The notes under the pieces are model-generated. The model was not told the origin of the DNA. It ran no database searches and saw only the letters and a program-made list of their open reading frames with translations. A DNA stretch of 64,000 bases, from positions 62,001 to 126,000 of the forward strand of contig NZ_WEZF01000008.1 in the NCBI RefSeq assembly GCF_009177065.1, written 5' to 3'. Positions 47,343 through 64,000 of the stretch are shown here, piece by piece. Position 1 is the first letter of the stretch, and each line of letters starts with the position of its first letter. Source of the DNA: Tautonia marina (GTDB lineage: Bacteria > Planctomycetota > Planctomycetia > Isosphaerales > Isosphaeraceae). The position numbers and the translations under genes are program-made.

Positions 47343-48035
47343 TCAGGATTCGACGATCTGTCCGTCTCTCATCCGAACTTCACGATCGGCCGCGGCGGCG
47401 ACCTCGGGACTATGCGTCACGATCAGGAGGGTAATCGACCGCTCGGCCCGGAGTCTTGCCAGCAGGTCGAGGATTTCTTGCTGAGATCGTGAGTCGAGGT
47501 TCCCGGTCGGCTCGTCGGCCAGGAGGAGAGCGGGCTCGTTCGCCAGGGCTCGGGCGATCGCCACCCGTTGCCGTTCTCCGATGGAAAGACTTCGGGGCAG
47601 ATGCCCCATCCGATGCGGCAAGCCCACCTCGTCCAGGAGCTTGCGAGCCACTTCGGGGCGCTGGGAGCGGGGGCGGCCCCCAGGGAACATGGGCACCTGC
47701 ACGTTTTCCAGGGCCGTTAGGGTCGAGATCAGATGAAACGCCTGGAAGACGAAGCCGACCTCGCACGCCCGATACCGATCGAGGTCGATCCCCGAAAGAG
47801 GGGTCCCCTTGTAATAGACCGTGCCCGAAGTTGGCCGATCGAGCCCACCAAGCACATGCAGCAAGGTGCTCTTGCCGCATCCCGAAGGCCCGGTGATCGC
47901 CACGAACTCTCCCGATCCCACCGCAACCGAGACCCCTCGAAGCGCCTGGACGTCACCATCGGGGTAGGTCTTGACCAAGGAATCGCCCCGGAGCAAGGGG
48001 GGGACAGTCTGGCCGTTCGAATCGTGCTCAGTCAT
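47343..48035 (-). CDS. ABC transporter ATP-binding protein, LolD/MacB/DevA-like
   Basis: A 230-residue ATPase. Walker A is GPSGCGKST, the signature is [15 protein letters not shown], Walker B is [15 protein letters not shown] and the switch His is in VTHSPEVA. This signature and the DEPTGNLD motif place it in the branch that works with FtsX-type permeases: LolD, MacB, DevA. It overlaps the permease gene by eight bases and is the last gene of the synthase operon. I infer that it powers export or membrane extraction of the product of the cluster. Confidence 0.93.
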
Positions 48036-49146
48036 GGCGAAGCGCCTCGGTCGGTTCCAGCCGAGAAGCCCGGACAGCCGGATAGAGGCCGCCGAGCAAG
48101 GTCAATCCGATGCCGAGCGCCACGCCGATCCCCAGGATCATTGGCGACAGGTTCGGCTCGATGAAGCCCCGGGACGTGGGCGAAAGCACCAGGGCCCTGG
48201 CTCCCGCAATCGCAAGGACGGTTCCCCCCATCACCCCGAGCAGGCCAAGCCCCGCCGCTTCTCCCATCAGGAGCAGAATGATCCGGCTCCGTCGCCAGCC
48301 CAGGGCCCGCAAAAGGCCGATCTCTCCCGTGCGCTCGGTGACGGCCATCGCCATCGTGTTCAACAGGCCAATCGACCCGAGCACCAGGGCGATGATGGTC
48401 GTGGCGCTGGCCATCGCTCGGGCAAGCCGGAGTTGTAGATTCCCCTGCACGTAGTCTCGGGCCGGGATCGCCGCCACGCCAGGCACCCGGCGCTCGACCT
48501 CACGGCCCAGGGCACGTGGGTCGGTCTTGGGGTCGGCCACAATGACAAACCCCGTCACCTGGCCTTCACGCCCCATCATGCGCTGAAGCTCGGGCAAGGG
48601 CATGACCAGACCACCCGACTCGAACAAACTATCGCTTTCGTAAATCCCGATCACCTGAAACGTTTCTCCGGCGATGTCGACCGAGTCTCCCACGCCTTTG
48701 CTCAGGTTCAAGGCCAGGACCCGACCGAGGAGAACCTGCCGACCATCGGACGGATCGAGCGGCCGCCCTTCGAGAATCCTCAGACCCTCGATCAGTAATC
48801 CGCCCGGCTCCCAGCCGTTGGCCAGGACGCTGACGAGATTCGCCTCTTCGAAGGAGACAGCGTCCATAAGCGAGGGAGCCACCGAGGCCACGCCGGGGAT
48901 CTTGCGGATCTCCTGCTGCAGTGTCTGGTCCAGGTTGCTCGAAAGTTGATCGCTGATCCCGGCGCGGACGACGATCAGGTCGATTTCTCGCGCTCGATAA
49001 ATCGCCAGGAACGACTGCTCAAACCCCCACGAAATGCCCGTCAGCAGCATCACCGCCGAAACCGCGACCGCCAGGCCGAGGACCGTCAAGACCGTCCGGG
49101 CCGGGCGGCCTCGCAAGTTGCGGACAATCAACCGCAAGTATCCCAT
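48028..49146 (-). CDS. ABC transporter permease, FtsX/MacB-like
   Basis: A 372-residue permease with four membrane segments: one near residues 18-38, then a large outside domain of about 200 residues, then three at about 245-275, 295-325 and 335-360. This is the FtsX/MacB/LolC layout. Its end MGGTVLAIAGARALV and [17 protein letters not shown] is the typical C-terminal EALR motif of the family. It is co-translated with its ATPase. The same layout occurs in DevC, the permease for heterocyst glycolipids in cyanobacteria, but sequence likeness to DevC is not shown. No membrane-fusion partner is seen here. Confidence 0.92.
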   Translation of the reverse strand: MGYLRLIVRNLRGRPARTVLTVLGLAVAVSAVMLLTGISWGFEQSFLAIYRAREIDLIVVRAGISDQLSSNLDQTLQQEIRKIPGVASVAPSLMDAVSFEEANLVSVLANGWEPGGLLIEGLRILEGRPLDPSDGRQVLLGRVLALNLSKGVGDSVDIAGETFQVIGIYESDSLFESGGLVMPLPELQRMMGREGQVTGFVIVADPKTDPRALGREVERRVPGVAAIPARDYVQGNLQLRLARAMASATTIIALVLGSIGLLNTMAMAVTERTGEIGLLRALGWRRSRIILLLMGEAAGLGLLGVMGGTVLAIAGARALVLSPTSRGFIEPNLSPMILGIGVALGIGLTLLGGLYPAVRASRLEPTEALRHD

Positions 49147-49191: not shown

Positions 49192-50037
49192 TCATTCGGG
49201 CGCACGACCGACGAACACATAACCAACCCCTCGCCAGATGCGCTCGAACTGACAATCGGTCAGGACGCGGCGGGCAATCGCCTCGACGTCGAGTTCCCGG
49301 TGCCGCTCGACCATCTCGGTGAATTCATCTCCGAGGTTCATGAAACGAGAAACCAACCAACGCTCCACGCCCGCCAGACCGATCTTGCGGAACGGAAGAT
49401 AATCGGTCAGGTCGGGCACCTCGTCGGAAACGACGATCAAGCCCCCCGGCTTCACGGCCCGAACCATTTCCCGGAGGGCCTGTTCGGGATCGTTAAAATA
49501 GTTGAACGCCCCGATGCTTAACGCGGCGTCAAACTGATTGTCCCGGACAGGCAGATCCTCGGCTTCTCCCAAAACGAGGGTGACATCGCGTCCGACCGCG
49601 TTCTTCTTCAGGCAAGCGTCAAGCTGGACGTCCGAGACGTCGACTCCGACAACCGACCAGCTTTCGGGGAGCCAGGGGAGATAGACACCGTCTCCGATCG
49701 CAATATCGAGAAGTTTGAGATTCTCTCCCTGAGGCAAGTGCTTCAACACGCGAGAACGCGCCCGTCGTTCCCCACCAAGATTGATAAACGTGAACCACTC
49801 CCAGAAGCGGAACTTGGGCCAGAGTGGACTGTTGTAAAACGACTGAGCGACCTCGTTATTGGCCGTGACCGATTCCCTGACCACCACGATCCCGTCTCGG
49901 ATCGGATACTGATGTCCACAGGAGGGGCAGACGATCGGGCCACCGTCTCCGGGATCGGTGGCGTCGGCCCCACAGGAAACGCATCGCCACACGTGCGCAT
50001 GCCAATCGGTTTTTGGACTGGAAACCACGGTCGACAT
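49192..50037 (-). CDS. Zinc-ribbon SAM-dependent methyltransferase 1
   Basis: A 281-residue protein with an N-terminal zinc ribbon (CVSC and CPSC, about residues 19-45), then a class I methyltransferase fold: motif I LLDIAIGDGVYLPWLP, an acidic motif II end VVGVDVS, AEDLPVRDNQFDAAL and LREMVRAVKPGGLIVVSDE. The ribbon is like that of UbiE/Trm112-related methyltransferases. It lies in the synthase operon and is a paralogue of the next gene. I infer methylation of the lipid or polyketide product, but a target such as a quinone cannot be excluded. ATG at 50037 chosen; the upstream frame is shadow. Confidence 0.87.
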   Translation of the reverse strand: MSTVVSSPKTDWHAHVWRCVSCGADATDPGDGGPIVCPSCGHQYPIRDGIVVVRESVTANNEVAQSFYNSPLWPKFRFWEWFTFINLGGERRARSRVLKHLPQGENLKLLDIAIGDGVYLPWLPESWSVVGVDVSDVQLDACLKKNAVGRDVTLVLGEAEDLPVRDNQFDAALSIGAFNYFNDPEQALREMVRAVKPGGLIVVSDEVPDLTDYLPFRKIGLAGVERWLVSRFMNLGDEFTEMVERHRELDVEAIARRVLTDCQFERIWRGVGYVFVGRAPE

Positions 50038-50083
50038 CACTCTCTCCCCCCCCTCGTCAAAGCCGATCACGCCGGGCCGATCG

Positions 50084-50905
50084 TCACCCTCGATGAACAA
50101 AGCAGTACCCCAGGCCACCCCAGATCCGATGCCGTTCGACTCCCGGAAGCGCGGCCTCGGCGATTGAGCCAAGGTCCTGAGGAAGCGAAAAAACCATGTC
50201 GATAAAGGCATCCTCCAGCCCGAGCCACCGAAGCCACGCCGCATCGATTCGAGGAATCCCGATCAGGTGCCCAATGCCAAACCGGCAGAGCCAGGGGACC
50301 TCGTCGGCCACCACCACCGGCCCACCAGGTTTGGTCACTCGGCGCATTTCTCGGAGCGCGGCGGCATGGTCGCTGAACATGGTAAAGCCTCCCACGCAAA
50401 GAGTCGCATCAACGCTTGCATCGACGATCGGCAATGCCTCGGCCTCGGCCAGGACGAGTCGACCCGACATGTTCGGGAACCTTCGGAGGCAGGCCTCCAG
50501 CCGGGACTTCGTATGATCGACCCCCAGGACCTCCCAGGTGTTCGGAAGCAATTTCAGGTTGTCGCCGTCGCCGATTCCGACCTCCAGAAGGCGAATCGAG
50601 GCATCATGCGGCAGGTGCGCAATGATCGGTTTACGGGCCCGATGGTTTCCCCCTTGCAAACCGAGGAAAGCCCGTTCCCACGGGCGAAATCGTTGCCAGC
50701 CTTGCCCTCCGTAAAAGGCTTCCGTAATCGCATTTCGTCCCGACAGTGGTCCAATGGCCTCGATCAGCCCTTCCCGTTCCGGAAACGAACGCCCACACGT
50801 CGGGCAGGATTCCCGACTGTTGAGCGGCGATCGACACTCAAGACAGCGCAGCAATCCCGCCAGGCTCGACACCGAGTTGGAGGATGGCGGAGACGCATGC
50901 AACAT
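50084..50905 (-). CDS. Zinc-ribbon SAM-dependent methyltransferase 2
   Basis: A 273-residue protein closely related in layout to the gene at 49192. It has CLEC and CPTC (zinc ribbon, about residues 21-38), then the SAM motif LLEVGIGDGDNLKLLP, VLGVDHTKSRLEAC, AEALPIVDASVDATL and LREMRRVTKPGGPVVVADE. The start at ATG 50905 is preferred; a TTG at 50950 overlapping the SDR stop is the other choice. It sits 46 bases before its paralogue. Two paralogous methyltransferases in one operon point to two methyl groups on one product or a heterodimer. Confidence 0.85.
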   Translation of the reverse strand: MLHASPPSSNSVSSLAGLLRCLECRSPLNSRESCPTCGRSFPEREGLIEAIGPLSGRNAITEAFYGGQGWQRFRPWERAFLGLQGGNHRARKPIIAHLPHDASIRLLEVGIGDGDNLKLLPNTWEVLGVDHTKSRLEACLRRFPNMSGRLVLAEAEALPIVDASVDATLCVGGFTMFSDHAAALREMRRVTKPGGPVVVADEVPWLCRFGIGHLIGIPRIDAAWLRWLGLEDAFIDMVFSLPQDLGSIAEAALPGVERHRIWGGLGYCFVHRG

Positions 50906-50939
50906 GAAACAGCACTCGCTTCCGAGAGTCTTGATCGGC

Positions 50940-51728
50940 TCAGAACTCAACCGTCAACGCTTCGGGACCAGCACGATCCATCATCCAGTCGTAAACCCGA
51001 CCGGGCATTCGTCGAAGGAACCCCATGCCCAGCGCGGTCCCGAACGGGAACACCGCATCACGAGGCCTCCGTTCGATCGCCCGAACGAGATAGGCTGCCG
51101 CCTGCTCAGGCTCCATCATCCGGATCGGGCGGCGAAACGGTGTTCCCTCTGTCATCGCCGTGCGGACGAAGCCTGGATAGACCGTGGTGATGGTCACTCC
51201 TCGACGTTTCAAGGCAGGCCGGAGTCCTTCAAGATAGGTCGTCAGCGCAGCTTTCGAAGCCGAGTATGCCGCCATCCAGGGCATACCGCGGTAGCCGGCA
51301 ACGCTGGAAATTCCGACCAAATGCCCACGTTTTCGTGCGATCATACCAGGAAGAACCGCGTCAATTGCATGAGCAACCCCCACCACGTTGACATCCAGCA
51401 TGGTCCGCAAAGCCTCGGGCTGAAGGTCGGGCAGTAAGGTCAGCCCCCCAACGCCCGCGCAGGCGACCAGCACGTCGGGCGGCCCAACTTTGGAATCGAG
51501 TTCCGCCGTTGCCGCGCGGACCGAAGCCAAATCAGTGACGTCGGCACATCGAACCGCATGATGGCACCCGGACGAATCGAGCCGCTCGGCCACCTCTCGG
51601 AGACCTTCTGCGTCCCGATCGATCAAACCCAGACGATATCCCCGCGCAGCAAGTGCCAACGCCGTCGCTCGGCCGATTCCTCGGCCCGCTCCCGTGAGAT
51701 AGATCGTCTCGGCCAGGCGATGGCTCAT
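50940..51728 (-). CDS. Short-chain dehydrogenase/reductase of the synthase operon
   Basis: A 262-residue SDR. Its motifs are TGAGRGIGRATALAL for NAD(P), ACAGVGG, ISSVAGYRG with the active Ser, and YSASKAAL (YxxxK). A C-terminal extension contains a long basic-hydrophobic end (GMGFLRRMPGRVYDWMMDRAG), which may lie on the membrane. It overlaps the upstream hydrolase by four bases (ATGA). I infer that it reduces the acyl or keto group of the synthase product, as SDRs do in glycolipid clusters, but this is not proven. Confidence 0.9.
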   Translation of the reverse strand: MSHRLAETIYLTGAGRGIGRATALALAARGYRLGLIDRDAEGLREVAERLDSSGCHHAVRCADVTDLASVRAATAELDSKVGPPDVLVACAGVGGLTLLPDLQPEALRTMLDVNVVGVAHAIDAVLPGMIARKRGHLVGISSVAGYRGMPWMAAYSASKAALTTYLEGLRPALKRRGVTITTVYPGFVRTAMTEGTPFRRPIRMMEPEQAAAYLVRAIERRPRDAVFPFGTALGMGFLRRMPGRVYDWMMDRAGPEALTVEF

Positions 51729-52579
51729 TGAGCGTCTCCCATCGCCCGGGCGGAATCGACCGACTCCAGAAAGCTCGTCAAGGCCGCCAGAAACGCCTCG
51801 GGGTTCTCTTCCGGTGCCCGATGCCGCGCGCCGGGTACGAGAGCCCGCCGACAGTCGGGTAAGTGCTCCACCAGATAATCGGCCGTTGCCAGAAACGGAG
51901 AGGCTTCCCCATACAGCGCGAGCACCGGAACATGAATCGAACCGATCCGGTCAACGGTCAATCCTGCCTCCACCTTCGTATCCTCGCCACAGGTCGTTTG
52001 ACAAAGGCGAAGCAAACGTTCCGTTCCTGGCAAGCCGACAGCCCGACGGAACTTCAGCATGTCATCGTCACTCAAATGCAAAACTTGATCAAAAAATTGA
52101 CCGAGATCGTACCAATGTTCATCAGAAAGAATGACTCCCGCATCTTCCGCCTCGCGACGAAAATTTTGCCAGTGGCCCCAGCGGCTCACGTCTTCCAGAT
52201 GACGCAGAGCCGGAAAATACGGGTCGGACAGGACCACGGCCTCCACTCGATCTGGCGCAAGTACGGCCGTATGGGCGGCGATGACCGCTCCGAAGCTATG
52301 CCCCACGATCCGGGCACGATCGGCCCCGATCTCATCCATCAGCGCGAGGACATCGGCCGCATGATCGGCCGATGTGTACCCCGAGGGTGTGACCTCGCTG
52401 TAGCCATGCCCTCTCAGGTCAAAGGCGGTGACGCGATAATCGGCGGCAAGCGCCTGCATGGCCCGGCAAAGGAACCAGATCGAAAGATCACCCGTGACCC
52501 CGTGAATCAGAATCACATCAGGCCCTTCACCGGCCTGCTGAACGTGAAGCCTGAGCCCATTGACCGCTCGGTGTGGCAT
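51725..52579 (-). CDS. Alpha/beta hydrolase of the synthase operon, possible thioesterase
   Basis: A 284-residue alpha/beta hydrolase. The oxyanion segment is LIHGVTGDLSIWF, the nucleophile elbow is VGHSFGAV, the acid region is ALYGEASPF, and the C-terminal His is in VPGARHRAPEENP. It follows the free ACP by 15 bases and overlaps the SDR. In such a cluster the natural role would be to release the finished acyl chain from the ACP, or to proofread it, but the fold alone does not tell thioesterase from esterase. No signal peptide is visible. Confidence 0.88.
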   Translation of the reverse strand: MPHRAVNGLRLHVQQAGEGPDVILIHGVTGDLSIWFLCRAMQALAADYRVTAFDLRGHGYSEVTPSGYTSADHAADVLALMDEIGADRARIVGHSFGAVIAAHTAVLAPDRVEAVVLSDPYFPALRHLEDVSRWGHWQNFRREAEDAGVILSDEHWYDLGQFFDQVLHLSDDDMLKFRRAVGLPGTERLLRLCQTTCGEDTKVEAGLTVDRIGSIHVPVLALYGEASPFLATADYLVEHLPDCRRALVPGARHRAPEENPEAFLAALTSFLESVDSARAMGDAQ

Positions 52580-52594
52580 CGGATCGGACTCCGC

Positions 52595-52867
52595 TCAATC
52601 GTGGAGGTATCGGGCCAGGAACGCGGCAAGTTCACCCATCGACAGATCGCGATTCTCGCGTCGGCCAAGCTCGGCCATCAATTCTCCGAACGGAAGTGGT
52701 CGGCCATAGTGTGCCTGGAGTGTTTCCCCGAGAACCACCGCGTCGATCGACGCGAGGCCGAGGTCGGCGAAAAACCGAGTTTCGGAACCAATGGGATCGG
52801 AGTATTCTCGTCCCTGGAAATCTGAGAGGACACGAGCCAGATCATCAAGGATCTCGGATTCATTCAT
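52595..52867 (-). CDS. Free-standing acyl carrier protein
   Basis: A 90-residue ACP. The phosphopantetheine site is in DLGLASIDAVVL, with Ser40 as the attachment residue. The rest fits the four-helix ACP fold. Its ATG (52867) overlaps the stop of the second synthase (ATGA), so its amount is tied to the synthase. It has no close likeness to the ACP inside synthase 1 (LGIDSIKRVEIL), so it may accept a different chain or take part in transfer. The fused phosphopantetheinyl transferase of synthase 2 is well placed to activate it. Confidence 0.93.
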   Translation of the reverse strand: MNESEILDDLARVLSDFQGREYSDPIGSETRFFADLGLASIDAVVLGETLQAHYGRPLPFGELMAELGRRENRDLSMGELAAFLARYLHD

Positions 52868-55800
52868 CGGCGACACTCCGCCCTGGAAAACCATGCGATG
52901 GCATAATTATCTCGAATTGCCGTTCCGACCCTGAACGGTTCGTCTGCGAGGTCCGGTCGAAGCTCTGCCAGGTCGGTATTGAGACGCACGGTGATCCAAC
53001 CGTTTTGGGCATCTACCGCCACCACCTCGGCACTTGAGGGGCCGGCAACCATTCCTCGCCCCGTCACCTTGCCCACGGCTTCCTTCGCGCACCAGAACCG
53101 AGCGATCCAGGCCGAACGGCCGTCTCGACCGATCTGGTCGAGCAGCCTTCGTTCCTGGTCGGTGAAGGCCAGCTCCTCGAACGACGCCGATCGGGGGACA
53201 ACCCGCTCCACATCGATGCCGACGATCGCGTGAGGCGACCGGTTTGCCAGGGCCACGGCAACTCCCTGAGTGTGAGCGATGGAAAGCGCCGGGAGGTCGC
53301 CATGATCGGGCGTTCTTCGCGAACGAATCCACGGCCGCCCATAACTGTCAGGCTCAATCGTCAGATCCGCCGGGTATTCTGGGGGGCGTCCGTCGCGGAG
53401 CCAGAGCCGACGCACAGTCTCCTTCGCCGCGATCCGTCCCCAGAGTCGCAAGGTCCGACGCTCTTCGGGTCCGGACGGCTGGAGGCATCCCGCTCGTTCC
53501 TCGGGAGACAGCTGCACATATTCCAGGACGTCTCGCCAGATGGGCTTGCCCATGTCCTCGGGTGGCTGCAGCCAGACGGCAACGCTGTCGGACCCCAACT
53601 CAGGTAACTCGAGGGCCTCGCCGAGGAGTTCACGATCGGGTTGGCGGAAGACATCGCGATAGCGCGGCGGCCAGTAGAACCGCCAATCTTCCCAGTCATC
53701 AAGCTGCATCCAGACTCGCCCATCGGGCAGAAGGATCTCAGCATCAACCATCACCCGGAGTCGATCGATCTCTTTGACCGCGATTCGGCAAACCAGGTCG
53801 GTTCCCTCGACTGGATCATGACCAAAAATGCGAAGTGAGCCGAGCCGGAGAGGAAAGATCACATCTCCTTCCGGCAGCTGATCAAGGCCCCAGCAGCCCA
53901 GCAAATGAGTAAACGCGTCCAGGACAATGGGGTTCGTCAAGGGAGGTGGTGCCGTGGGATCTTCTTGAATGGCTCGGAGCGGGAGTACACGTAAGACCCC
54001 TTCGATCCCTTGATTCGAAGCGTCTCCTATCCCGACGACGGCCTGGAGCGCCGGTCCGTGAAACAGCCATTGCTCCGAATAAATCGACTCGGCCGTGAAT
54101 CGAGTCGGGGTGGCATGTTCCCCCAGGTCGAACGGACGAGGGGGAGGAGGATCAGATCGTCGTGCTCCAAAATCCAGAAGGGCCTCGACTTCCGGTCGAT
54201 CAAGATCTCGAGCAGGCCCATCAACAGGTCCTCGATCAAAGAGGGCCGCATGAAACGAATTGAGCGTGTTGGGGATTTTCGAAATTCGAATTTCAAGCCG
54301 GATCGGCACCTCTTCATAGCGAATCCAGCGCCGAGCCCGAACGTCTCTCAAACCAATCAGGACGCCGTTACCAGCATGATTCGCTGCGGCGTGAGCGAGC
54401 ATTTCCGCCATGATGGTGAAGGGTAAGACCGGCAGTCCCTTCATCCCAGGATCGACCGCCGAGATGCGCCGACCTCCAAACGTATGATGCTCGGCCACAG
54501 GATCCTTCATCGCATCGAGCACGCGCCATTCGACCCACTCGGCACGCTCTCCGGATGGTTCGATTATCCCGTTTCTGGAAACGGGGACACCGTTTGCCGT
54601 CGTTATGGGGAGACCACCCCTCTCGTTCTGCTCCGTGGTTCGTGGGGATTCATCCCCGTCGGCCTGATGTGCAGCACGGTCTACCTGAACCGCACCGTTC
54701 TCAAGCAGATCCACCTCTCCCCGCAGCGGAGGCAACATTTCAGAATTCAGAGCACAGGAAAGTACGCGTTTTTGAGTTTCCAGAAAGGAGTTCATTGTGC
54801 GAAAGTATGACCGAATCGCGTCATCGTCACACAAATGCCCATCGACGTCACCCGATTGATGCGAGAACGGAGTGGGCTCACTCATCTCGAACATAAGGCG
54901 ATTCGAGAGATCTGAGAAATCCGAGAGATTTGAGAGGGGTAGCTCGATCTCTTTCGGCTCCTGTTGCCCACGGAGCGCCGAAGCCAACTCGTCCGAAAGT
55001 TGCATTTCAGGGAAGCCGAGGCGAAGCGCCACCCTCGGTGCCGGAGTCTGGACCTCCTGATCGAGATCAACGTGCTGTGGTCGCCGGCGCGACGTGAGGA
55101 CCTTCGGGTCGATGGAGACCCCTTGCGCAAAGAGTGACGCGACCAGATGATTCAACTGGGTGATTCCGGATCGCCTCGGAACATTCGCCGCCACCGCGAA
55201 CGATGGACGACCGCGAAGCGTATCCTCGACAAAGGCCGCAAGATTTCCGCGCCCTCCGACATCAACAAAGAGTCGAAGGCCATCGGCATACATGGTTTCG
55301 ACCGTCTGGCGAAACTCGACGGGTTTGGTCCATTGAGCAATCGCAAGGTGACGAGCCTTCTGGACCGAGTCAGGAAAACGACCAGCAACGCAACAGGAAT
55401 AAACCGGCACCTCGGGGGATCGCATGGGGATCGATTCAAAAAATGCTCGAATTGGCGCAAGAGCGGCGGAAAAGACTTCGGTATGATATGCCCTGGTGAA
55501 GGGAAGCTCCTCACAACCGATCCCCTCGGCTTTCAACCGATCTGCCATCGTACGAGCAACCTGTGGCGCACCGACAAGCAGCACTTGATGTGGGCAATTA
55601 TCGACGGCAATCGCCATTGGGATCGCATTTTCCTTCACGATCCGTTCGATGCGCTCTCGATGCGTTGCCACACCGATCATTCGAGCCTCTGGAATCACTC
55701 CAGACCGCTCAAGCTCAGAGAAAACCGATGCAAGATCGTTAAATCGTCCTTCGAGTTGATCGTCGTCTGCAATGACTCCCGCGGCCACAAGCGCAGGGAA

Positions 55801-57843
55801 CTCTCCGCTACTGTGTCCGCACAGAGCATCAGGTCGTAACCCGAGCCGAAGCAAGAGTTGATAGATCGCCCACTGTGCGGCAAGCACGATATGGACGGCA
55901 GTGGAGGTTTCCCAGAGCCCTGCATCATCCTGGCGGTCCTGGCGGAAGAGTCGGCCGCTCGGCGGTTCGATCGAGCCCGAATCGTGTGCCATCCGATCAA
56001 TTCGATCGAACGGAATCCGGACTTCAGGGAAGTGCATACAGAGATCCGCAAGCATGCCGGGATATTGCGACCCTTCTCCAGGAAAGAGAAACGCCAGCCC
56101 CCCCTCTCGGCCAAGAGGCCGCTCCCAGTAGTAGGCTCCTTTCGTGTCTCGAATGGACTCCCGATTCGGATCGGAGAGACGCTCACCGATTGATTCAAGC
56201 CGATCAATCAATGCGTCAACATTCTCGACAACCATTCCCAGTCGGCTGGCGTGTCCTGAATGCACCGCCTCGGCATTCAAGGTTGCGGCCAGGTCTTTCA
56301 AGTCCCAATCTGAACGACGACGCAACTGACGAGCCAGGGTACGAACCCGATCCACCATTGCATTCCGGTTCGGCTCGGCAATCAAAATCGTTTCATCGGG
56401 CCAGCGAAGCAGGGCACCCGGCACCTGATGATCCGAAGACGGATGTGCTTCCAGAACGGCATGACCATTGATCCCCGCAAACCCGAATGCGTTCACTCCC
56501 GCTCGTCGAGGCGTCTTGCCTCCTTGTATCCACGGGCGACTTGTGGGGTTCCGTTCGAACCGATCTTCTGCCTTCCGCAGCAATGCGTGAGGTTCACCCA
56601 CATCAGGGCTGGCAGGGAGCACGCGATGGTGCAGCGCGAGGGCCGCCTTGATGACTCCGGCCATGCCTGCGGCCGGCATTGGGTGCCCAATCAGGGCAGA
56701 GGCAGCGCCGAGGACCCGAGTCGTTCCGGATTCCGTCGGGGGAAATACGGCGTACAGAGCCTTCAGTTCCGCGCGATCGGCTGCCGGGACTCCGAGCCCA
56801 TGCCCCTCGATCAGTTCGACCGATGCGGGTTCGACACTCGATTGGCGATACGCGCGACGGATCGCCCGAACGTGCCCCTTCGCGTCCGGCGAGGCCAGGC
56901 CTCGGCCACGCCCGTCACTCGACAGGCCAACACCTTTGAGGACGGCATAAATCCGATCTCGGTTTCGCTCAGCATCGCGCAAACGCTTGAGCACCAGAAC
57001 CCCGACACCTTCACCCGGTACGAGACCATCGGCATCCTCGGCAAACGGTCGCGATTCTCCCGATCGGGAAAGCACACCGAGTTGCGAGAAGACCATCGGA
57101 AAGTCCACATCCGCTTCGATGTACACTCCCCCCACGATAACCAGATCGGCCCGTTTCGACCTCAGGGCATTCGCTCCTAGATCAAGTGCGACCAGCGCAG
57201 AGGCACTGGCTGCATCGACCACGTAGCTCGCGCCGGTCAATCCCAGTCGATGACTCACGCGCCCCGCAGTCGCATTGGTGATCTGACCAGGGATCGTCGC
57301 CGACTCGAAGGGTGGGAGGGTCCGCTTCAGCTCAGACCGAACGGCATCCCGATCCGCGTCCGACCACTCGGGATGCAGAGCATTCAGAATCGCCAGCGTT
57401 TGAGCCAACACTCGCCCGTGCTGTAATCGGGTCAGATTTCCTCGATTGAAATAATTCCCTCGACCAATCACCACCTCGACTCGTCGACCATCCTGAACTC
57501 CCTCCGGATAGCCGGCATCGGATAACGCTGATCGAGCGGCATCGAGGACGAGGAACTGCTCGGGTTCCCCCCCCTCCAACGTTCTCGGCATCACCCCGAG
57601 CGAACCCGGATCCATCAGGATCGGCTCATCCAGGTATCCTCCCCGGCGCCCCTTCACTCGATCACTTGCAGAAGATTCAGGATCGTAAAAGGTGTTTGCA
57701 TCCCAGCGATGAGAGGGAACCTCGGAGATGGACGTCCGCCCCTCCAGAACATTCTGCCAGAACTGGAACAGATTCGTGGCTCCCGCGAATCGACAGGCCA
57801 TGCCCACGATCGCCACATCGAGCGGTCGAGATCTCCGACTCAT
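52864..57843 (-). CDS. Synthase 2: KS (Cys to Ser) - AT - DH - phosphopantetheinyl transferase
   Basis: A 1659-residue iterative synthase subunit. Residues about 8-450 are a ketosynthase fold with VAIVGMACRFAGA; the active-site Cys is replaced by Ser213 in DAASASAL, and the GHTKxAAG motif reads GHPMPAAG. The His motif EGHG remains. Residues about 570-900 are an acyltransferase with GHSSGE (Ser678). Residues about 1110-1400 are a double-hotdog dehydratase with HHTFGG (His1120) and Asp1309 in IVLDAFTH. Residues about 1490-1655 are an Sfp-type phosphopantetheinyl transferase with GIDVE (Asp1544) and WCAKEAVGK (Lys1587, Glu1588). ATG overlaps the stop of synthase 1 (ATGA). The KS probably does not condense; it may act like a chain-length factor or a decarboxylase. 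Confidence 0.92.
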   Translation of the reverse strand: MSRRSRPLDVAIVGMACRFAGATNLFQFWQNVLEGRTSISEVPSHRWDANTFYDPESSASDRVKGRRGGYLDEPILMDPGSLGVMPRTLEGGEPEQFLVLDAARSALSDAGYPEGVQDGRRVEVVIGRGNYFNRGNLTRLQHGRVLAQTLAILNALHPEWSDADRDAVRSELKRTLPPFESATIPGQITNATAGRVSHRLGLTGASYVVDAASASALVALDLGANALRSKRADLVIVGGVYIEADVDFPMVFSQLGVLSRSGESRPFAEDADGLVPGEGVGVLVLKRLRDAERNRDRIYAVLKGVGLSSDGRGRGLASPDAKGHVRAIRRAYRQSSVEPASVELIEGHGLGVPAADRAELKALYAVFPPTESGTTRVLGAASALIGHPMPAAGMAGVIKAALALHHRVLPASPDVGEPHALLRKAEDRFERNPTSRPWIQGGKTPRRAGVNAFGFAGINGHAVLEAHPSSDHQVPGALLRWPDETILIAEPNRNAMVDRVRTLARQLRRRSDWDLKDLAATLNAEAVHSGHASRLGMVVENVDALIDRLESIGERLSDPNRESIRDTKGAYYWERPLGREGGLAFLFPGEGSQYPGMLADLCMHFPEVRIPFDRIDRMAHDSGSIEPPSGRLFRQDRQDDAGLWETSTAVHIVLAAQWAIYQLLLRLGLRPDALCGHSSGEFPALVAAGVIADDDQLEGRFNDLASVFSELERSGVIPEARMIGVATHRERIERIVKENAIPMAIAVDNCPHQVLLVGAPQVARTMADRLKAEGIGCEELPFTRAYHTEVFSAALAPIRAFFESIPMRSPEVPVYSCCVAGRFPDSVQKARHLAIAQWTKPVEFRQTVETMYADGLRLFVDVGGRGNLAAFVEDTLRGRPSFAVAANVPRRSGITQLNHLVASLFAQGVSIDPKVLTSRRRPQHVDLDQEVQTPAPRVALRLGFPEMQLSDELASALRGQQEPKEIELPLSNLSDFSDLSNRLMFEMSEPTPFSHQSGDVDGHLCDDDAIRSYFRTMNSFLETQKRVLSCALNSEMLPPLRGEVDLLENGAVQVDRAAHQADGDESPRTTEQNERGGLPITTANGVPVSRNGIIEPSGERAEWVEWRVLDAMKDPVAEHHTFGGRRISAVDPGMKGLPVLPFTIMAEMLAHAAANHAGNGVLIGLRDVRARRWIRYEEVPIRLEIRISKIPNTLNSFHAALFDRGPVDGPARDLDRPEVEALLDFGARRSDPPPPRPFDLGEHATPTRFTAESIYSEQWLFHGPALQAVVGIGDASNQGIEGVLRVLPLRAIQEDPTAPPPLTNPIVLDAFTHLLGCWGLDQLPEGDVIFPLRLGSLRIFGHDPVEGTDLVCRIAVKEIDRLRVMVDAEILLPDGRVWMQLDDWEDWRFYWPPRYRDVFRQPDRELLGEALELPELGSDSVAVWLQPPEDMGKPIWRDVLEYVQLSPEERAGCLQPSGPEERRTLRLWGRIAAKETVRRLWLRDGRPPEYPADLTIEPDSYGRPWIRSRRTPDHGDLPALSIAHTQGVAVALANRSPHAIVGIDVERVVPRSASFEELAFTDQERRLLDQIGRDGRSAWIARFWCAKEAVGKVTGRGMVAGPSSAEVVAVDAQNGWITVRLNTDLAELRPDLADEPFRVGTAIRDNYAIAWFSRAECRR

Positions 57844-60800
57844 CGACCTGCTCCCAGTCGCAGCCAGTCGGGGCGATCGACGGGAGCATCGAGTCCGCCG
57901 AGGTCTGAAGCCAGAATGACCTCCACCTCTCCTTTACGGCCAAAGAGAAGCTCATCCAGGAGCGCCTTGCATCCAACTTCTGGATCGATCATGCCCAGTC
58001 CCCGACGGCCGAGATGCTCCTGGAGTTCAGAGACCATTCCGACTCCGGCCCAAGGCCCCCAGTTGATTGAGACGACCCGCCCCGGCCATTGGCGATCGAG
58101 CCAGAGCGCGAGCTTGTTCAAGACTTCATTTGCTGCGGCGTAGTCGGACTGACCTTGATTGCCAAACCGGCCCGCAACCGAGGAAAAGAGCGCCGAGAAG
58201 CGGAGCGATTCTCCCTGGAGCAATCGGGCGAGGTTCAACGCGCCATCGATCTTGGTTCCGAGGACACGATCAAACGAATCGGGAGTTTTGTCACGAAGCA
58301 ACTTGTCATGGATCACACCGGCTCCATGAATGAATCCGACCGGATCTCCGAATCTCCGCTTCCAACCATGAAGCACTTGCTGCAATGCCTCGGCATTGCG
58401 CACATCCACCTGGGCATACTCCACGGCAGCTCCCTCGGCCCGAATGCGGTCGATGGTGGAGCGAATCTCACGGGCACGCAAGACTGACCGATACGATTGC
58501 TCCAGGTCCGACGGACCAATCGAGCGGCCGCCTCGCCGCGCCTGCTCGAGCAGGATGGCTTTCAAGGCAGCCGCAGAGTCGATCCCCACGGTTTCCTGCG
58601 ATTCTCGCTCCGCGGGTATCGGGCTCGTCCCAACGAGCAGGAGGGTTGGTTTCCAGGCCCTCGCCAGTTCGACGGCGACCGCGGAGGTGATTCCACGAGC
58701 ACCCCCTGTGATCAAAATCGGCTCGCCTTTGTGAATTTGAAAGGCTGGATCGTCATTGGAGAGTTCTCGTTCCACGGCACGAAGCCGAACACGACGACCA
58801 TCCCGATAGCCGACTTCAGGCCATCCATCGTCATGCAATGCTTCGAACATCAGGTGATTGGCGAGAATGGTCGGATTCTCCGTCGGGTCCAGATCGACGA
58901 CTCTTGACCGGACCGCCGGCCACTCCCGACTCAACGTTTTCACCAGACCCGCAATGCCACCCTGGCCCGGAACGAACTGACCTGGAAGAGGTTCCAGGGA
59001 ACCAAACGAGCCTCCCATGGCGGTTGCCGCGATGAGGCACGATCCCCCCTGTCGCGCCGAACGCTCCAGATCGTCCGCCGCTGCACGAGCAAGCAAAAAC
59101 AAGGCCCGAATACTCGCCCCCAACCGAGACGACCCTACGGCAGGATCGCCATGATCCAGAGCTGAATCACCAATCGGTTGCACATGAATGATCCCTGTGA
59201 TGTGACCTCCTGCGCGAGCTTCAGCGTACCGCTCCTCCACCGCCGTTGCGGACGAGAGATCGGCCCAGTCGGTCCCAACCAGCTCCACCTTGAACCTCTG
59301 GGATCTGAACTGATTTGCAAGAGATTGTGCCACTCCTCGCCCGTCATCGGTGATGAGGAGCGTTCCTCCCTCCACGAGCGACGATTCTTCAGCCTCAGCA
59401 GAAGCTTCGACGGACTCCAACAGCATCCGTCGCAAGGGTGTTCCGCCCGATGGTGTCTCACGACTCACAATTGCCTGGTCCGAATCTCCAACTGGTCTGG
59501 AGGCAGGAGATTGGTCCCTCTCTTCTCGCAGCTCAGCACCCGATCGAGGTTTCCCATTGCGGCGGCTGGAGTCAGCGTGCGACTCATGGTTCCCCTCGAC
59601 CGTTGGGCGTTGCTCGTGAGCTTCCGCCAGCGCCTCTTCGACTCGATCGACGATCTCTCCCAGTGTTTTTGCTCGTGCGAGCCCATCCATCAAACCAGAG
59701 GCGACGAGCGATCGAAGCCCTTCGATCGAGTCGCGCAGCGTTCCCAGAATTTCCACACGTTTGATGGAGTCGATCCCAAGATCCGCCTCCAGATCAAGGC
59801 TCATCCCGAGCATTTCCACCGGATAACCTGTACGGTCCTGAACGATCTCAATCAGTCGCTGGGCCACCGAACCTTCGGTCGGCGAAGCAGGGAACTCATT
59901 TGGTGTCTCATGGTTCTTCGGAAGCTCGTCGGGGGAGTGAGCCGCCATGACCGGTGACACCGGCTTCGCCTCGGCTCCTCGACGAGTCGCTGGGAGGGAA
60001 TCCTCGGTCGAAGGACGAATCAGCCGCGTCGGTTGTTCGTCCAGGAGTGATTCCTGAAAATCACCCGTGATCGTCGAATCATACGAGGGACGGTTGGAAT
60101 GATCCGTACCCCGCGACTCCCGATTCTGCGTACTCTCAGTCGAGTATGGTTCTTCACCGGAAGCGAGGCGATTCTCCCTGGCAGACCGTCCCGTCAGATA
60201 GGTCTGCATGGTCGCTTGTTGGACCTGAAGGAAAAGACGCATCGTCTCCTGAAATGATTCCATGATCCGTGCGGAGCTTGAGCAATTCAACGTGTTCTGA
60301 GCACCGTCGCTTGCGCGGGCTGCGTTGCTTGCCAAGGTGGAGGCAATCGCCCTGGAAGATTCCCCCTCAACGATGCTGGCCTTGGGTGGGCTCACTCGGG
60401 AAGAACCATTCGAACTTTCATGAGTGCGCAAGTTGAATCGTTCTCCCCCAAGTCCTTCCCCGGTCGGATGTCCGTTGCGAACCGGAGCGACGGGATGGCT
60501 GGGCATCGGGTGGTGCGACACGGTCATGCCCCCCTTCGATTCGAGATCACGGGATGGTTCCGACACCGGGCTCATTGCGCGTTGTTTCAAGTGTTCGGGA
60601 GCCATACCCAGACGTTCCGGTTCCGGACCTTTGATCGGTCGCGCGCGGCTTCCATTCACCAGCCAGGTCGAGGCCGACACGGCTTCGACCTGATCGGACA
60701 GACGACCGAGTTGCAGGGCACGGGCTCCCCGACGACGGGTCAACCGCTCCAATCCGTCCATCTCGACTCCGGCAACGAGCAACCTCCCCAGAGTCTTCAA

Positions 60801-63800
60801 CAGAGTTGGAATTCCCGGATTCCCCGGAACATCGCAGGAAACCGCCAGGTGAGGGCGATCTCCGAGAATCGACTTCACCAGGGGAGTCAGAATCGATCCG
60901 GGCCCACACTCGATGAAGACCCGAGCCCCGTCCTGGCTCATCGACTCGATCATGGTCGAGAACAAGACCGGCGAGGCGAGATGATCCCCGAGACGCTGGG
61001 CAATTGCCGCGGGATCGTCCGGAGAGACCCGAGCATCCAAATTGGAATAGACGGGAATCGCTGCCGACGAGGTCAACAGACTGCGTGAGCGTTCGGCCAT
61101 GGGATCACGAGCCGCCGCAACCCGGGGCGAGTGGAAGGCAGCACCAACCGGAAGGTCGAACGTCCGGACACCCCGCGACCGAGCCCGATCAATCGCGCGG
61201 TTCACGGCATCGCGGCCTCCGGCAATCACGGATTGCCTCGGTCCGTTCCGGTTGGCAAGCACCACGTCGTCAAGTCCGTCGATCAGAGCGGTGGCCTGAT
61301 CGGCATCACACGCCAGGGCAGCCATCACGCCCCGATCAGCTCCGGCCGCTTCGATCATCAAGCGCCCTCGGGCCTCGGAAAGCTCGGCCAGGGCGTTGGC
61401 ATCAATCACCCCGCTCGCATGCAAGGCAACCAGCTCGCCGTAACTGTGCCCCGCAACCAGATCGGGGCGAATTCCCAGGGCTTCGAGGCAGCGGAGCATT
61501 CCGACCGACGCCGCACCCACGGCCGGTTGAGCCACGTCGGTCGCCGTAAGAGCCAGTCGGGCCCGTTCGCGATCGGCGTCTTCCAGGGTCGGCGGAGGGA
61601 ACACCTTCGGACCAATCGGCGATCGCCCTGAGGCGACCAGGGCTGCATCAAAGGATTCGTAACCGCTCCGAACTTCATCAAAGGCAATCGCCAGATCAAG
61701 CAGCATGTCCAGGCGTTGCGCTCCCTGGCCTGGAAAGAGAAAGGCGACCTTCGCTCCCAGGAACGGCGGTCGTTCCTCGAACGCGATTCCCCGAGGGTCG
61801 TGAAAGGATGCGTCTCCCCGGTCAATGGCCTCGCGAGCGACGGTCAGAAACGATCGCAACTGCTCGATCGAGGTCGCCGTCATTGCCAGCGTCGGTCGGG
61901 GTCGATCGGAGGGAGGAAACGATCGAATCAGCGTATGAGCAAGATCTCGAAGAGAAGGAGAGGCCCCCTGATCGAGTTGGAGAGCAAGCTGATCGATTGA
62001 CGCGAGCAAGTGCTCTCGGTTCTCCGATCGCCAGACGAACAATTCTGCAGGCCAGTCGTGCAGCGGATCGGGCCGGGGGGCGGGGTCGGCCTCGTAGGCT
62101 TCAAGCACCGCGTGAAAATTGGTGCCGCCAAAGCCAAACGCACTGACACCGGCCCGCCTCGGATGCTGAGGGTCGGAATGCAGCCAGGGACGAACGGCCG
62201 AGGACACGCGAAGGGGGCCGTCTCGCAAATCGGCCGCGGGATTCAGTCGTTCAATCCCGATCGTCGGCGGAAGGATCTTGTGGTACAAGGTCAGCGATGC
62301 GTTGATCAATCCAGCCAGACCCGCCGCGCATTTCGTATGGCCAATCATCGACTTGACCGATCCCACGGCAATGGATGCAGGGGCCGCGCCGTCCCGGCGA
62401 AGGAACTGGGACAGCGCATTGACCTCGACCACATCTCCCACGGCCGTGCCGGTCCCATGAGCCTCGACGTATCCGACACTCCTCGGAGCCACGCCCGCCT
62501 TGGCATACGCTCTCGCCAGGGCTCGGGCCTGACCGTCGCCGTTGGGAGCCGTCAGACCGCGGGCTCGGCCGTCACTGGAACTGCCAAGCCCCTTGATCAC
62601 GGCATAAATCCGGTCACCATCGCGCTCGGCGTCGGCAAGTCGTTTGAGCACGACCACACCGACCCCCTCACTGATCACAATTCCATCGGCCGAAGCGTCG
62701 AACGGCCGGCTGCGTCCTCGGGGCGAGAATGCTTGTGTTTTACTGAACGCGAGGTAGGTGAACGGATTTTGAACCGTATCCGCTCCTCCCAGAATCACCA
62801 TGTCGGCCGCGTGTGTTTCCAGCTCTCGAACGGCAAGGCTCGCTGCGGCCAGCGAGGAACCGCAAGCGGCATCGACGGTGTAATTCGCTCCTCCCAGGTC
62901 GAAGCGATTCGCCACGCGACCGGCCGTCACATTCAAGAGAAAGCCCGGAAAGGCGTCTTCCGTCCACTCGGGCAAGTAGTGTTCAGCCTGTTCGCGGACA
63001 GCTCGACCGGCCTCGGGAGCGATCGATTCAAGCATCGGCAAATACGACCGAAACGCATATCCCATTGCGAGCTGGGCTGCACCTCCTCCCATCCCGAGAA
63101 CAACCGCGGTGCGATCTTTGGGAAACGGCCGATCCGAGTAGCCCGCATCATCCAGCGCCGCGCGAACCGTTTCCAGCACAAGCAACTGAGCCGGTTCGAT
63201 CGAGGGAAGACTTGTCGGCGGCATCCCATATCGCAAGGGGTCGAAGGGGATGTCGGGCAAAAATCCGCCCCACCTGGAGATGATCTTGTCGGGGGCTTTT
63301 CCATCAGGATCGTAGTAGGGTCGCCAATCCCAGTGATCGGAAGGAACTTCGACAATCGCATCCACCCCATGCAGGGTGTTGTTCCAGAATGCTTGCAGAT
63401 TCCTGGCGCCCGGCATGATCGCCGCCATGCCAACAATTGCCACGTCCGAGGGAGTCGCCGCCGGCGCTTTGGCCTCCGGTTCGACGATGGGGCGATCGAG
63501 CCGCGCTGTGCTTTGCACACATAACTGATCGTGTAATTCGGCAATCGTGGTAACCCGATCGCGCAAGGTGGCAACCTGGCCGATCATGTAAAGGCCACGG
63601 GCGTACTGCTCGGCCTCGCTGAGCGGTTCGAGCGGGGCTCTCGCACCTGGGCCCCGATCGACCCCTTTGCTCGCCACTCGCAAGCGGCCGACGTTCAATT
63701 CTTCCAGCGTGGCCTGAATCACCTCGGCCGAGGTCCCCGCGGCGATCAAGCGTTTCCGCTCACTCGCAAACTGTTCCGTGAACGGAGACGGAACCGCGCG

Positions 63801-64000
63801 GACCTCGTGGCCGGGGCCCGTCGGCAGCAAGACGGTCGATTGGCAACGCACCGCCTCGGCCTGAAACCTCGGCGCAATCGCTCCGGTTTCAACCGCCTCT
63901 TGCGTGAACAGGTAGGCGGTCCCCACCAGTACGCCGATCTTCGCCCCTCGATGGGCAAGAGGACCCGACAGGGCCGCCACGCCCGCGGCGGATCGGGCGT
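57840..64000 (-). CDS. Synthase 1: PfaD-like ER end - KS - AT - ACP - KR, 5' end outside the window
   Basis: The frame is open through the right edge, so at least 2052 residues are visible and the start is missing. The first 130 residues (TAYLFTQEAVETGAIAPRFQ and LLPTGPGHEVRA) match the C-terminal part of PfaD-type flavin enoyl reductases. Then follow a KS with intact DAACGSSL (Cys codon 62862-62864), EAHGTGTAVGD and GHTKCAAG; an AT with GHSYGE (Ser codon 61443-61445); a low-complexity linker of about 300 residues; a single ACP with LGIDSIKRVEIL; and a KR with GGARGIT and DYAAAN (Tyr codon 58140-58142). The ACP motif is that of Pfa and Hgl synthases. It is the first visible gene of the nine-gene operon. 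Confidence 0.94.
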   Translation of the reverse strand, partial: ARSAAGVAALSGPLAHRGAKIGVLVGTAYLFTQEAVETGAIAPRFQAEAVRCQSTVLLPTGPGHEVRAVPSPFTEQFASERKRLIAAGTSAEVIQATLEELNVGRLRVASKGVDRGPGARAPLEPLSEAEQYARGLYMIGQVATLRDRVTTIAELHDQLCVQSTARLDRPIVEPEAKAPAATPSDVAIVGMAAIMPGARNLQAFWNNTLHGVDAIVEVPSDHWDWRPYYDPDGKAPDKIISRWGGFLPDIPFDPLRYGMPPTSLPSIEPAQLLVLETVRAALDDAGYSDRPFPKDRTAVVLGMGGGAAQLAMGYAFRSYLPMLESIAPEAGRAVREQAEHYLPEWTEDAFPGFLLNVTAGRVANRFDLGGANYTVDAACGSSLAAASLAVRELETHAADMVILGGADTVQNPFTYLAFSKTQAFSPRGRSRPFDASADGIVISEGVGVVVLKRLADAERDGDRIYAVIKGLGSSSDGRARGLTAPNGDGQARALARAYAKAGVAPRSVGYVEAHGTGTAVGDVVEVNALSQFLRRDGAAPASIAVGSVKSMIGHTKCAAGLAGLINASLTLYHKILPPTIGIERLNPAADLRDGPLRVSSAVRPWLHSDPQHPRRAGVSAFGFGGTNFHAVLEAYEADPAPRPDPLHDWPAELFVWRSENREHLLASIDQLALQLDQGASPSLRDLAHTLIRSFPPSDRPRPTLAMTATSIEQLRSFLTVAREAIDRGDASFHDPRGIAFEERPPFLGAKVAFLFPGQGAQRLDMLLDLAIAFDEVRSGYESFDAALVASGRSPIGPKVFPPPTLEDADRERARLALTATDVAQPAVGAASVGMLRCLEALGIRPDLVAGHSYGELVALHASGVIDANALAELSEARGRLMIEAAGADRGVMAALACDADQATALIDGLDDVVLANRNGPRQSVIAGGRDAVNRAIDRARSRGVRTFDLPVGAAFHSPRVAAARDPMAERSRSLLTSSAAIPVYSNLDARVSPDDPAAIAQRLGDHLASPVLFSTMIESMSQDGARVFIECGPGSILTPLVKSILGDRPHLAVSCDVPGNPGIPTLLKTLGRLLVAGVEMDGLERLTRRRGARALQLGRLSDQVEAVSASTWLVNGSRARPIKGPEPERLGMAPEHLKQRAMSPVSEPSRDLESKGGMTVSHHPMPSHPVAPVRNGHPTGEGLGGERFNLRTHESSNGSSRVSPPKASIVEGESSRAIASTLASNAARASDGAQNTLNCSSSARIMESFQETMRLFLQVQQATMQTYLTGRSARENRLASGEEPYSTESTQNRESRGTDHSNRPSYDSTITGDFQESLLDEQPTRLIRPSTEDSLPATRRGAEAKPVSPVMAAHSPDELPKNHETPNEFPASPTEGSVAQRLIEIVQDRTGYPVEMLGMSLDLEADLGIDSIKRVEILGTLRDSIEGLRSLVASGLMDGLARAKTLGEIVDRVEEALAEAHEQRPTVEGNHESHADSSRRNGKPRSGAELREERDQSPASRPVGDSDQAIVSRETPSGGTPLRRMLLESVEASAEAEESSLVEGGTLLITDDGRGVAQSLANQFRSQRFKVELVGTDWADLSSATAVEERYAEARAGGHITGIIHVQPIGDSALDHGDPAVGSSRLGASIRALFLLARAAADDLERSARQGGSCLIAATAMGGSFGSLEPLPGQFVPGQGGIAGLVKTLSREWPAVRSRVVDLDPTENPTILANHLMFEALHDDGWPEVGYRDGRRVRLRAVERELSNDDPAFQIHKGEPILITGGARGITSAVAVELARAWKPTLLLVGTSPIPAERESQETVGIDSAAALKAILLEQARRGGRSIGPSDLEQSYRSVLRAREIRSTIDRIRAEGAAVEYAQVDVRNAEALQQVLHGWKRRFGDPVGFIHGAGVIHDKLLRDKTPDSFDRVLGTKIDGALNLARLLQGESLRFSALFSSVAGRFGNQGQSDYAAANEVLNKLALWLDRQWPGRVVSINWGPWAGVGMVSELQEHLGRRGLGMIDPEVGCKALLDELLFGRKGEVEVILASDLGGLDAPVDRPDWLRLGAGR

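Follow-up and report, generated by a model that had tools for sequence, protein, structure and literature searches.

The 64,000-nucleotide stretch of Tautonia marina DNA analysed here (the window) carries on its minus strand two adjacent genes for large multidomain synthases. The gene for synthase 1 (57840..64000) runs past the window end; in the assembly its full open frame spans about 2598 aa, with Pfam matches to ketoacyl-synt, Acyl_transf_1, PP-binding and KR and, fused upstream of the ketosynthase (KS1), a nitronate-monooxygenase-type enoylreductase (NMO/ER) domain, giving the order NMO/ER-KS1-MAT-ACP-KR. Synthase 1 scores 1083 against the cutoff of 1010 for the PfaA model of NCBIfam (TIGR02813), a cutoff that synthase 2 does not reach. 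KS1 (62091..63446, limits approximate, from Pfam and alignment) has its Cys-His-His-Lys set intact, as originally predicted, with the motifs DAACGSSL, EAHGTGT and VKSMIGHTKCAAG. The malonyltransferase AT1 (60873..61742, Pfam and alignment) keeps both malonate-holding residues, Gln (VAQPA) and Arg (ARGR).

Synthase 2 (52864..57843) is encoded by an uninterrupted open reading frame of 1659 aa, in which Pfam recognizes ketoacyl-synt (E 1.3e-59), the N and C ketoacyl-synt domains, Acyl_transf_1 and ACPS; no ACP was detected by Pfam in this protein. Its N-terminal ketosynthase-fold domain, KS2 (residues 1-475; 56419..57843), delimited by Pfam, alignment and tree, is 44% identical to KS1. It is followed by an acyltransferase, AT2 (55159..56106, alignment), a region resembling double-hotdog dehydratases (DH-like; 53524..54576) and a 4'-phosphopantetheinyl transferase (PPTase) domain (52975..53223; Pfam ACPS, 3.7e-15). 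The dehydratase assignment is based on a weak match to the profile of the polyketide synthase dehydratase 8qk4 (PDB; E 0.0015) together with conserved His and Asp motifs, HT(F/L)GG and LDAFTHLLG. Synthases 1 and 2 together are a compact Pfa-like synthase. The codon at the nucleophile position of KS2 (57205..57207) reads AGT on the minus strand and places a serine, Ser213 within YVVDAASASALVAL, where active ketosynthases carry Cys, which bears out the original prediction; we refer below to Ser-type and Cys-type KS2 accordingly. In the C-termini of synthase 2 from four Ser-clade loci (L049, L044, L051 and L052) the PPTase motifs are degraded (GIAIMAL and ACAKNALRN in L049), and the fused PPTase may therefore be inactive in those members.

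The synthase 1 stop codon overlaps the synthase 2 start codon in the window as ATGA. The same overlap was found in 10 of the 12 other junctions read from Ser-type clusters or from the congeneric genome G002, being absent in L047/L049; it is also absent from the Cys-type junction L055/L056. By its arrangement the overlap suggests coupled expression of the two synthases, and nothing beyond that.

Six further minus-strand genes lie downstream: an alpha/beta hydrolase (51725..52579), an SDR (50940..51728), a class I methyltransferase (50084..50950), a second class I methyltransferase whose start codon is uncertain (49192..50244), a MacB/FtsX-type ABC permease (48028..49146) and an ABC ATPase (47343..48035). 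They are syntenic in the Ser-type loci read far enough and, with the two synthases, make up a cluster of eight conserved genes. Cys-type loci contain only distant matches to the hydrolase and the SDR, and in the Cys-type neighbourhoods read neither of the two methyltransferases nor any ABC gene lies within range. A tandem of a ketosynthase and a chain-length factor (KS-CLF) was sought in the cluster of the window's genome and none was found, KS1 and KS2 being its only ketosynthases; the other ketosynthase matches of this genome lie on different contigs. Our literature search returned no description of the product of the eight-gene cluster, and a search for planctomycete PUFA-synthase ketosynthases returned nothing.

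Distribution and phylogeny of the Ser-type KS2

Among 45 genomes of the family to which the window's genome belongs, presumably Isosphaeraceae, 18, from 11 genera, encode a Ser-type KS2 (63-84% identical to that of the window), and all 18 carry the Ser. Wherever members of this clade were read at the DNA level the codon is AGC or AGT, with synonymous changes only. In two drafts (G029 and G031) the gene is split by contig ends and the Ser is present. A sequencing error or chance as the source of the Ser is ruled out by its occurrence in 18 genomes of 11 genera. Conversely, the nearest KS2 homologues outside the clade, drawn from the window's family and from other families, all have Cys (9/9). 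The original prediction had left it to the relatives to show whether the substitution is fixed, and could have fallen to Cys in those relatives or to a sequencing error; within the clade the Ser is fixed (18/18 genomes), and Cys appears only outside it.

In the tree, the Ser sequences and the KS2 of G002 form a single clade (support 100/100), which joins the Cys-bearing KS2s in a KS2 group (100/97) apart from the KS1, PfaA, PfaC-KS and PfaC-CLF groups. The comparison with PfaC chain-length factors proposed in the original prediction thus yielded no kinship, the CLF sequences forming a clade of their own (100/100). A single TGY to AGY change at the base of the Ser clade would explain the data.

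The Cys-bearing planctomycete proteins (G016, G030, G063, G064 and G023) are synthases of the same kind, with KS2 domains 47-48% identical to that of the window and, where read (G016, G030 and G023), a partner synthase 1; they keep the Cys, the Lys, GTGT and GFGG, whereas the Ser-type KS2 does not. Two genomes, G023 (L045, L057) and G064 (L151, L153), encode Ser-type and Cys-type KS2 synthases side by side. A scan of named genomes with the KS2 alignment recovered mainly distant ketosynthases and one orthologue contig, L072, from a Planctomycetota MAG, and in a search of plasmids all matches were below 45% identity.

Concerted loss of catalytic residues

We took as reference the 113 alignment columns whose conservation among 48 active ketosynthases is at least 85%. 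Only eight of them have switched residue in the Ser clade. Cys213 has become Ser; Thr350 is Leu/Ile and Thr352 is Val/Ile/Leu/Ala; Lys382 is replaced by Ser/Ala, Gly355 by Ala/Ser and Gly456, in the GFGG loop, by Ala; Gln324 has given way to His; and Asp268 also differs. About 105 of the 113 are kept, and the change in KS2 is therefore not one of general decay. In the window, alignment places the two Thr changes, to Leu and Val, at 56788..56796 (HGTGT to HGLGV, with loss of the phosphopantetheine/oxyanion threonines), Lys382 to Ser at 56698..56700 and Gly456 to Ala at 56476..56478. Both catalytic histidines, His348 (56800..56802) and His387 (56683..56685), are kept, and every Ser-clade member read has them, G002 excepted. 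A further stretch, GRGNYFNRGNLTRLQHGR (residues 127-144; 57412..57465), is near-invariant in the Ser clade and degenerate in G002. Five of the eight switches fall in a seven-residue catalytic set (the Cys, two His, two Thr, the Lys and the loop Gly; hypergeometric P about 8e-6) and four in a stricter six-residue set (P about 1.5e-4), values that are illustrative since the sets were picked after the result was seen. AlphaFold2 models of KS2 and of the G002 KS2, built from shallow alignments, have mean pLDDT of 52.9 and 39.5, too low for structural interpretation.

Measured against the Cys-His-His triad plus Lys of active ketosynthases, all Ser-clade members read have Ser at 213 and Ser or Ala at 382. 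The lysine is that of VKSxxGH, established as the catalytic lysine of the ketosynthase family (E. coli FabF numbering); it stands five residues before the His of GHTK and is thus lost in KS2 outside the GHTK element. The alteration of that element itself, from GHTKxAAG to GHPMPAAG, had been offered as a further sign of inactivation. The change is present, but we dismiss it as such a mark because the Cys-bearing KS2s show similar ones (HTI/HTM); active PfaC ketosynthases also differ after that His (GHALTAAG).

The pattern of losses bears on the proposal that KS2 is a decarboxylating starter domain of the KSQ kind with Ser instead of Gln, which would convert malonyl-ACP to acetyl-ACP and so prime KS1. 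The precedent exists: natural Cys-to-Ser ketosynthases that only decarboxylate (KSS) are reported from the polyene loading modules of nystatin, amphotericin and natamycin (PMC12843615), and like KS2 these domains, and the KSQ of GfsA, are full-length type I ketosynthases with a replaced Cys. Moreover, both of the histidines that would hold the carboxylate are kept in KS2, and malonyl-ACP could come in trans from KS1-MAT. In the proposed decarboxylation, however, the His pair has the carboxylate role and the Thr pair the oxyanion role, holding the thioester oxygen (PMC12267109), and KS2 has lost this Thr pair as well as the Lys (HGLGV, LGAASALIGH). Our comparison set for the class, consisting of the GfsA KSQ and four other replaced-nucleophile ketosynthases from unrelated loci (one each with Gln, His, Ser and Ala; a search of actinobacterial genomes for polyene KSS found none), retains what KS2 lacks: GfsA has HGTGT and IKTNIGH, and all four others keep Lys and Thr-Thr. 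The setting differs too, since a KSQ sits in a loading module with an extender-type, malonyl-specific AT and an ACP, whereas AT2 of synthase 2 is not malonyl-type, having no Gln-Arg pair, and no ACP was detected beside it; in G002, furthermore, KS2 has lost the His pair as well. Because KSQ domains keep the Lys and Thr-Thr and KS2 does not, we consider a decarboxylase distinctly unlikely, the precedent for Ser being the part of that proposal that holds. In the same survey, the nucleophile position is occupied by Ala in L104 and by His in L109, and a Verrucomicrobiales MAG (L143:8908-16752) encodes, in an unrelated modular PKS, a Ser ketosynthase (DTASSSSL) with Lys and Thr-Thr kept.

KS2 might instead have become an acyltransferase with a Ser nucleophile, Ser213 and the His pair carrying the chain as an ester for starter transfer or release, with no condensation. 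This reading would account for three observations: no Ser-clade member read departs from Ser213, His348 or His387, the Ser codon varies only synonymously (AGC/AGT), and within synthase 2 no domain is more tightly constrained than KS2 (see below). It sits less well with the disappearance of the Lys and of the phosphopantetheine-binding Thr pair, which should impair the handling of acyl-ACP, and with G002, which has none of Ser, His and His and yet keeps the cluster. Nor do the histidines decide the matter: CLFs keep the pair without catalysis, and since the CLF of Moritella PfaC (6riw alignment) has both of them with Cys and GTGT lost, their retention is weak evidence of catalysis. We regard such an activity as unlikely.

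Acyltransferases and the companion ketosynthase

AT2 has the motif GHSSGE in all Ser-clade members read, and not the GYSxG of bacterial PfaB. The malonyl Gln-Arg pair is absent from AT2 in every member read, Cys-type synthases included. PfaB, which possesses a pseudo-KS, has lost the same pair and moves long acyl chains (PMC12895367). As the Cys-type relatives share the loss, it is older than the Ser change and therefore leaves the disarming of KS2 unexplained. Many family members additionally encode separate PfaA and PfaC-like (KS-CLF) synthases (L060-L068); the AT of the PfaC-like protein is of the PfaB-like GYS type in the three that were read (L060, L062 and L063).

KS1 is itself unusual in Ser-type clusters. 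Gly directly follows the Cys (DAACGSS) in 15 of 15 such domains, as against Ala in 32 of 33 others, and there are further changes to or at Phe, Ser, Tyr and Asn/His that are rare or absent in other active ketosynthases. These clade-specific changes suggest that KS1 was altered at the time when KS2 was disarmed.

Selection on KS2 and its decay in one lineage

Between the window and G003, dN/dS rises within synthase 2 from 0.069 (KS2) through 0.091 (AT2) and 0.112 (DH region) to 0.124 (PPTase), with KS1 at 0.034; as synonymous sites are near saturation in this pair, only the order of the values is reliable. The order is the same for G035-G026 (KS2 0.163, other synthase 2 domains 0.199-0.391), so that in both Ser-type pairs tested KS2 ranks lowest in dN/dS within synthase 2 and is under purifying selection. 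In the Cys-type pair L055-L056 the lowest value within synthase 2 belongs to AT2, not to KS2.

A different picture is offered by the synthase 2 of G002, from the same genus as the window's genome (locus L058:6675-11693), where KS2 alone has decayed, in frame. In this KS2 Gly occupies the nucleophile position, both catalytic His are lost and there are several small deletions; a frameshift is excluded as the cause, for the domain can be aligned in a single frame from end to end. Its identity to the window is 51%, compared with 65% (AT2) and 62% (DH region), and KS2 dN/dS for L041-L058 reaches 0.46. G002 nevertheless keeps an intact KS1 on an ordinary branch, AT2, the DH-like region and the PPTase, and retains the whole cluster.

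G002 gives the best case for the view that KS2 is a vestigial pseudodomain, kept for the sake of the attached AT, DH and PPTase, with the Ser as a harmless early step of decay: there the domain decays freely beside constrained ones. The view is very hard to reconcile with the strong purifying selection on KS2 in the Ser-type pairs tested and with the retention of about 105 of the 113 conserved columns, the switched ones being clustered at the chemistry, and we think it highly improbable. Given the constraint in the Ser-type pairs and the decay in G002 beside a kept cluster, the Ser form, as read from these sequences, is not a general ruin, yet it proved dispensable in one lineage.

Discussion

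KS2 is a real and fixed variant of an already known theme, that of a pseudo-KS (KS') followed by an AT. All DHA-type PfaB proteins have ketosynthase domains without the active Cys (PMC3098273), as has been described for the KS' of DHA-type Pfa systems (PMC12895367). KS2-AT2 resembles PfaB (PMC12895367, PMC3098273) in having a ketosynthase fold without the catalytic Cys and then an AT without the malonyl Gln-Arg pair, and both proteins have as partner a PfaA-like protein of KS-MAT-ACP-KR type. The two differ in that KS2 has its full length, is highly conserved and, G002 excepted, retains both His, whereas the KS' of PfaB lacks the whole Cys-His-His set; in that AT2 has GHS and PfaB GYS; and in that synthase 2 has DH-like and PPTase domains fused on. 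Unlike in PfaB systems, the ER (NMO) is here fused to the PfaA-like protein, and a separate KS-CLF protein is absent from the cluster. With the CLF of PfaC (KS-CLF didomain, 6riw) KS2 shares a lost nucleophile, an altered HGTGT and an active ketosynthase partner, but it belongs to a separate clade and is carried on a different polypeptide from the active KS1, with an AT behind it; the Lys still found in the Moritella CLF is missing from KS2.

Of the catalytic residues KS2 keeps only the His pair, and for this reason we favour, over a Ser acyltransferase, a KSS-type decarboxylase or a vestige, the reading that KS2 is a non-condensing, PfaB/CLF-like partner domain and that KS1 does all condensations in a two-protein Pfa-like synthase; we lean towards it with moderate confidence. 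Its observed supports are a Ser that is fixed, with Lys, Thr-Thr and the loop Gly lost alongside it while the His pair stays; purifying selection on KS2; an intact KS1; the PfaB-like signature of AT2; and a cluster kept in synteny. The in-frame loss of all catalytic residues from the KS2 of G002, beside normal KS1, AT2, DH and PPTase domains, and the frequent ATGA overlap of the two synthase genes also speak for it. The original prediction of a ketosynthase paired with a CLF-like partner accordingly stands as regards a non-condensing partner, which is the best supported of the roles it named, although KS2 lies outside the PfaC CLF clade (100/100). With the loss fixed throughout 18 genomes and the remainder of the domain well preserved, KS2 is probably a helper or docking partner for KS1, the chain-building domain.

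On the partner reading, a single event in the ancestor of one type of planctomycete cluster would have disarmed KS2 as a catalyst, and the domain would thereafter have been retained as a non-condensing partner. KS1 would perform all carbon-carbon bond formation iteratively, while synthase 2 would contribute a KS'-AT2 platform, the dehydratase and the PPTase. The part of KS2 may be that of a chain-length factor or of the PfaB pseudo-KS, dimerising or docking with KS1 or the ACP and holding the growing acyl chain in position or gauging its length. AT2, having no residue pair for malonate, would act on acyl groups other than malonyl, either in loading the starter or in unloading the finished chain. 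We infer that KS2 neither condenses nor decarboxylates, that it has a dimer or docking role, and in which direction acyl groups are transferred.

Several observations run counter to the partner reading. The invariant Ser, His and His, and the position of KS2 as the best-conserved domain, fit a retained Ser-based activity equally well, and KS2 is full length, where the KS' of PfaB is short and degenerate, and stands outside the CLF clade. AT2, moreover, has GHS where PfaB has GYS, and its loss of Gln-Arg is older than the Ser change. A less likely reading is that the joint change of nucleophile, Lys, Thr-Thr and loop residues turned a full-length type I ketosynthase into a new kind of partner: either a Ser-His-His acyl carrier or transferase that works without the usual phosphopantetheine contacts, or a partner that sets chain length in trans on a separate synthase polypeptide. 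If this were so, G002 would count as a naturally occurring knockout of KS2 function.

The pseudo-KS domains of Pfa systems are poorly understood, and those described are degenerate. The planctomycete KS2 provides, within one family, a series that leads from an active Cys form through a Ser form, disarmed yet strongly conserved, to one that has decayed completely, with G023 and G064, which have both KS2 types, as a natural within-genome control. This series opens the role of non-condensing ketosynthases in iterative lipid and polyketide synthases to genetics and chemistry, and the KS2 finding has brought to notice a cluster of eight conserved genes that includes methyltransferases and an ABC transporter.
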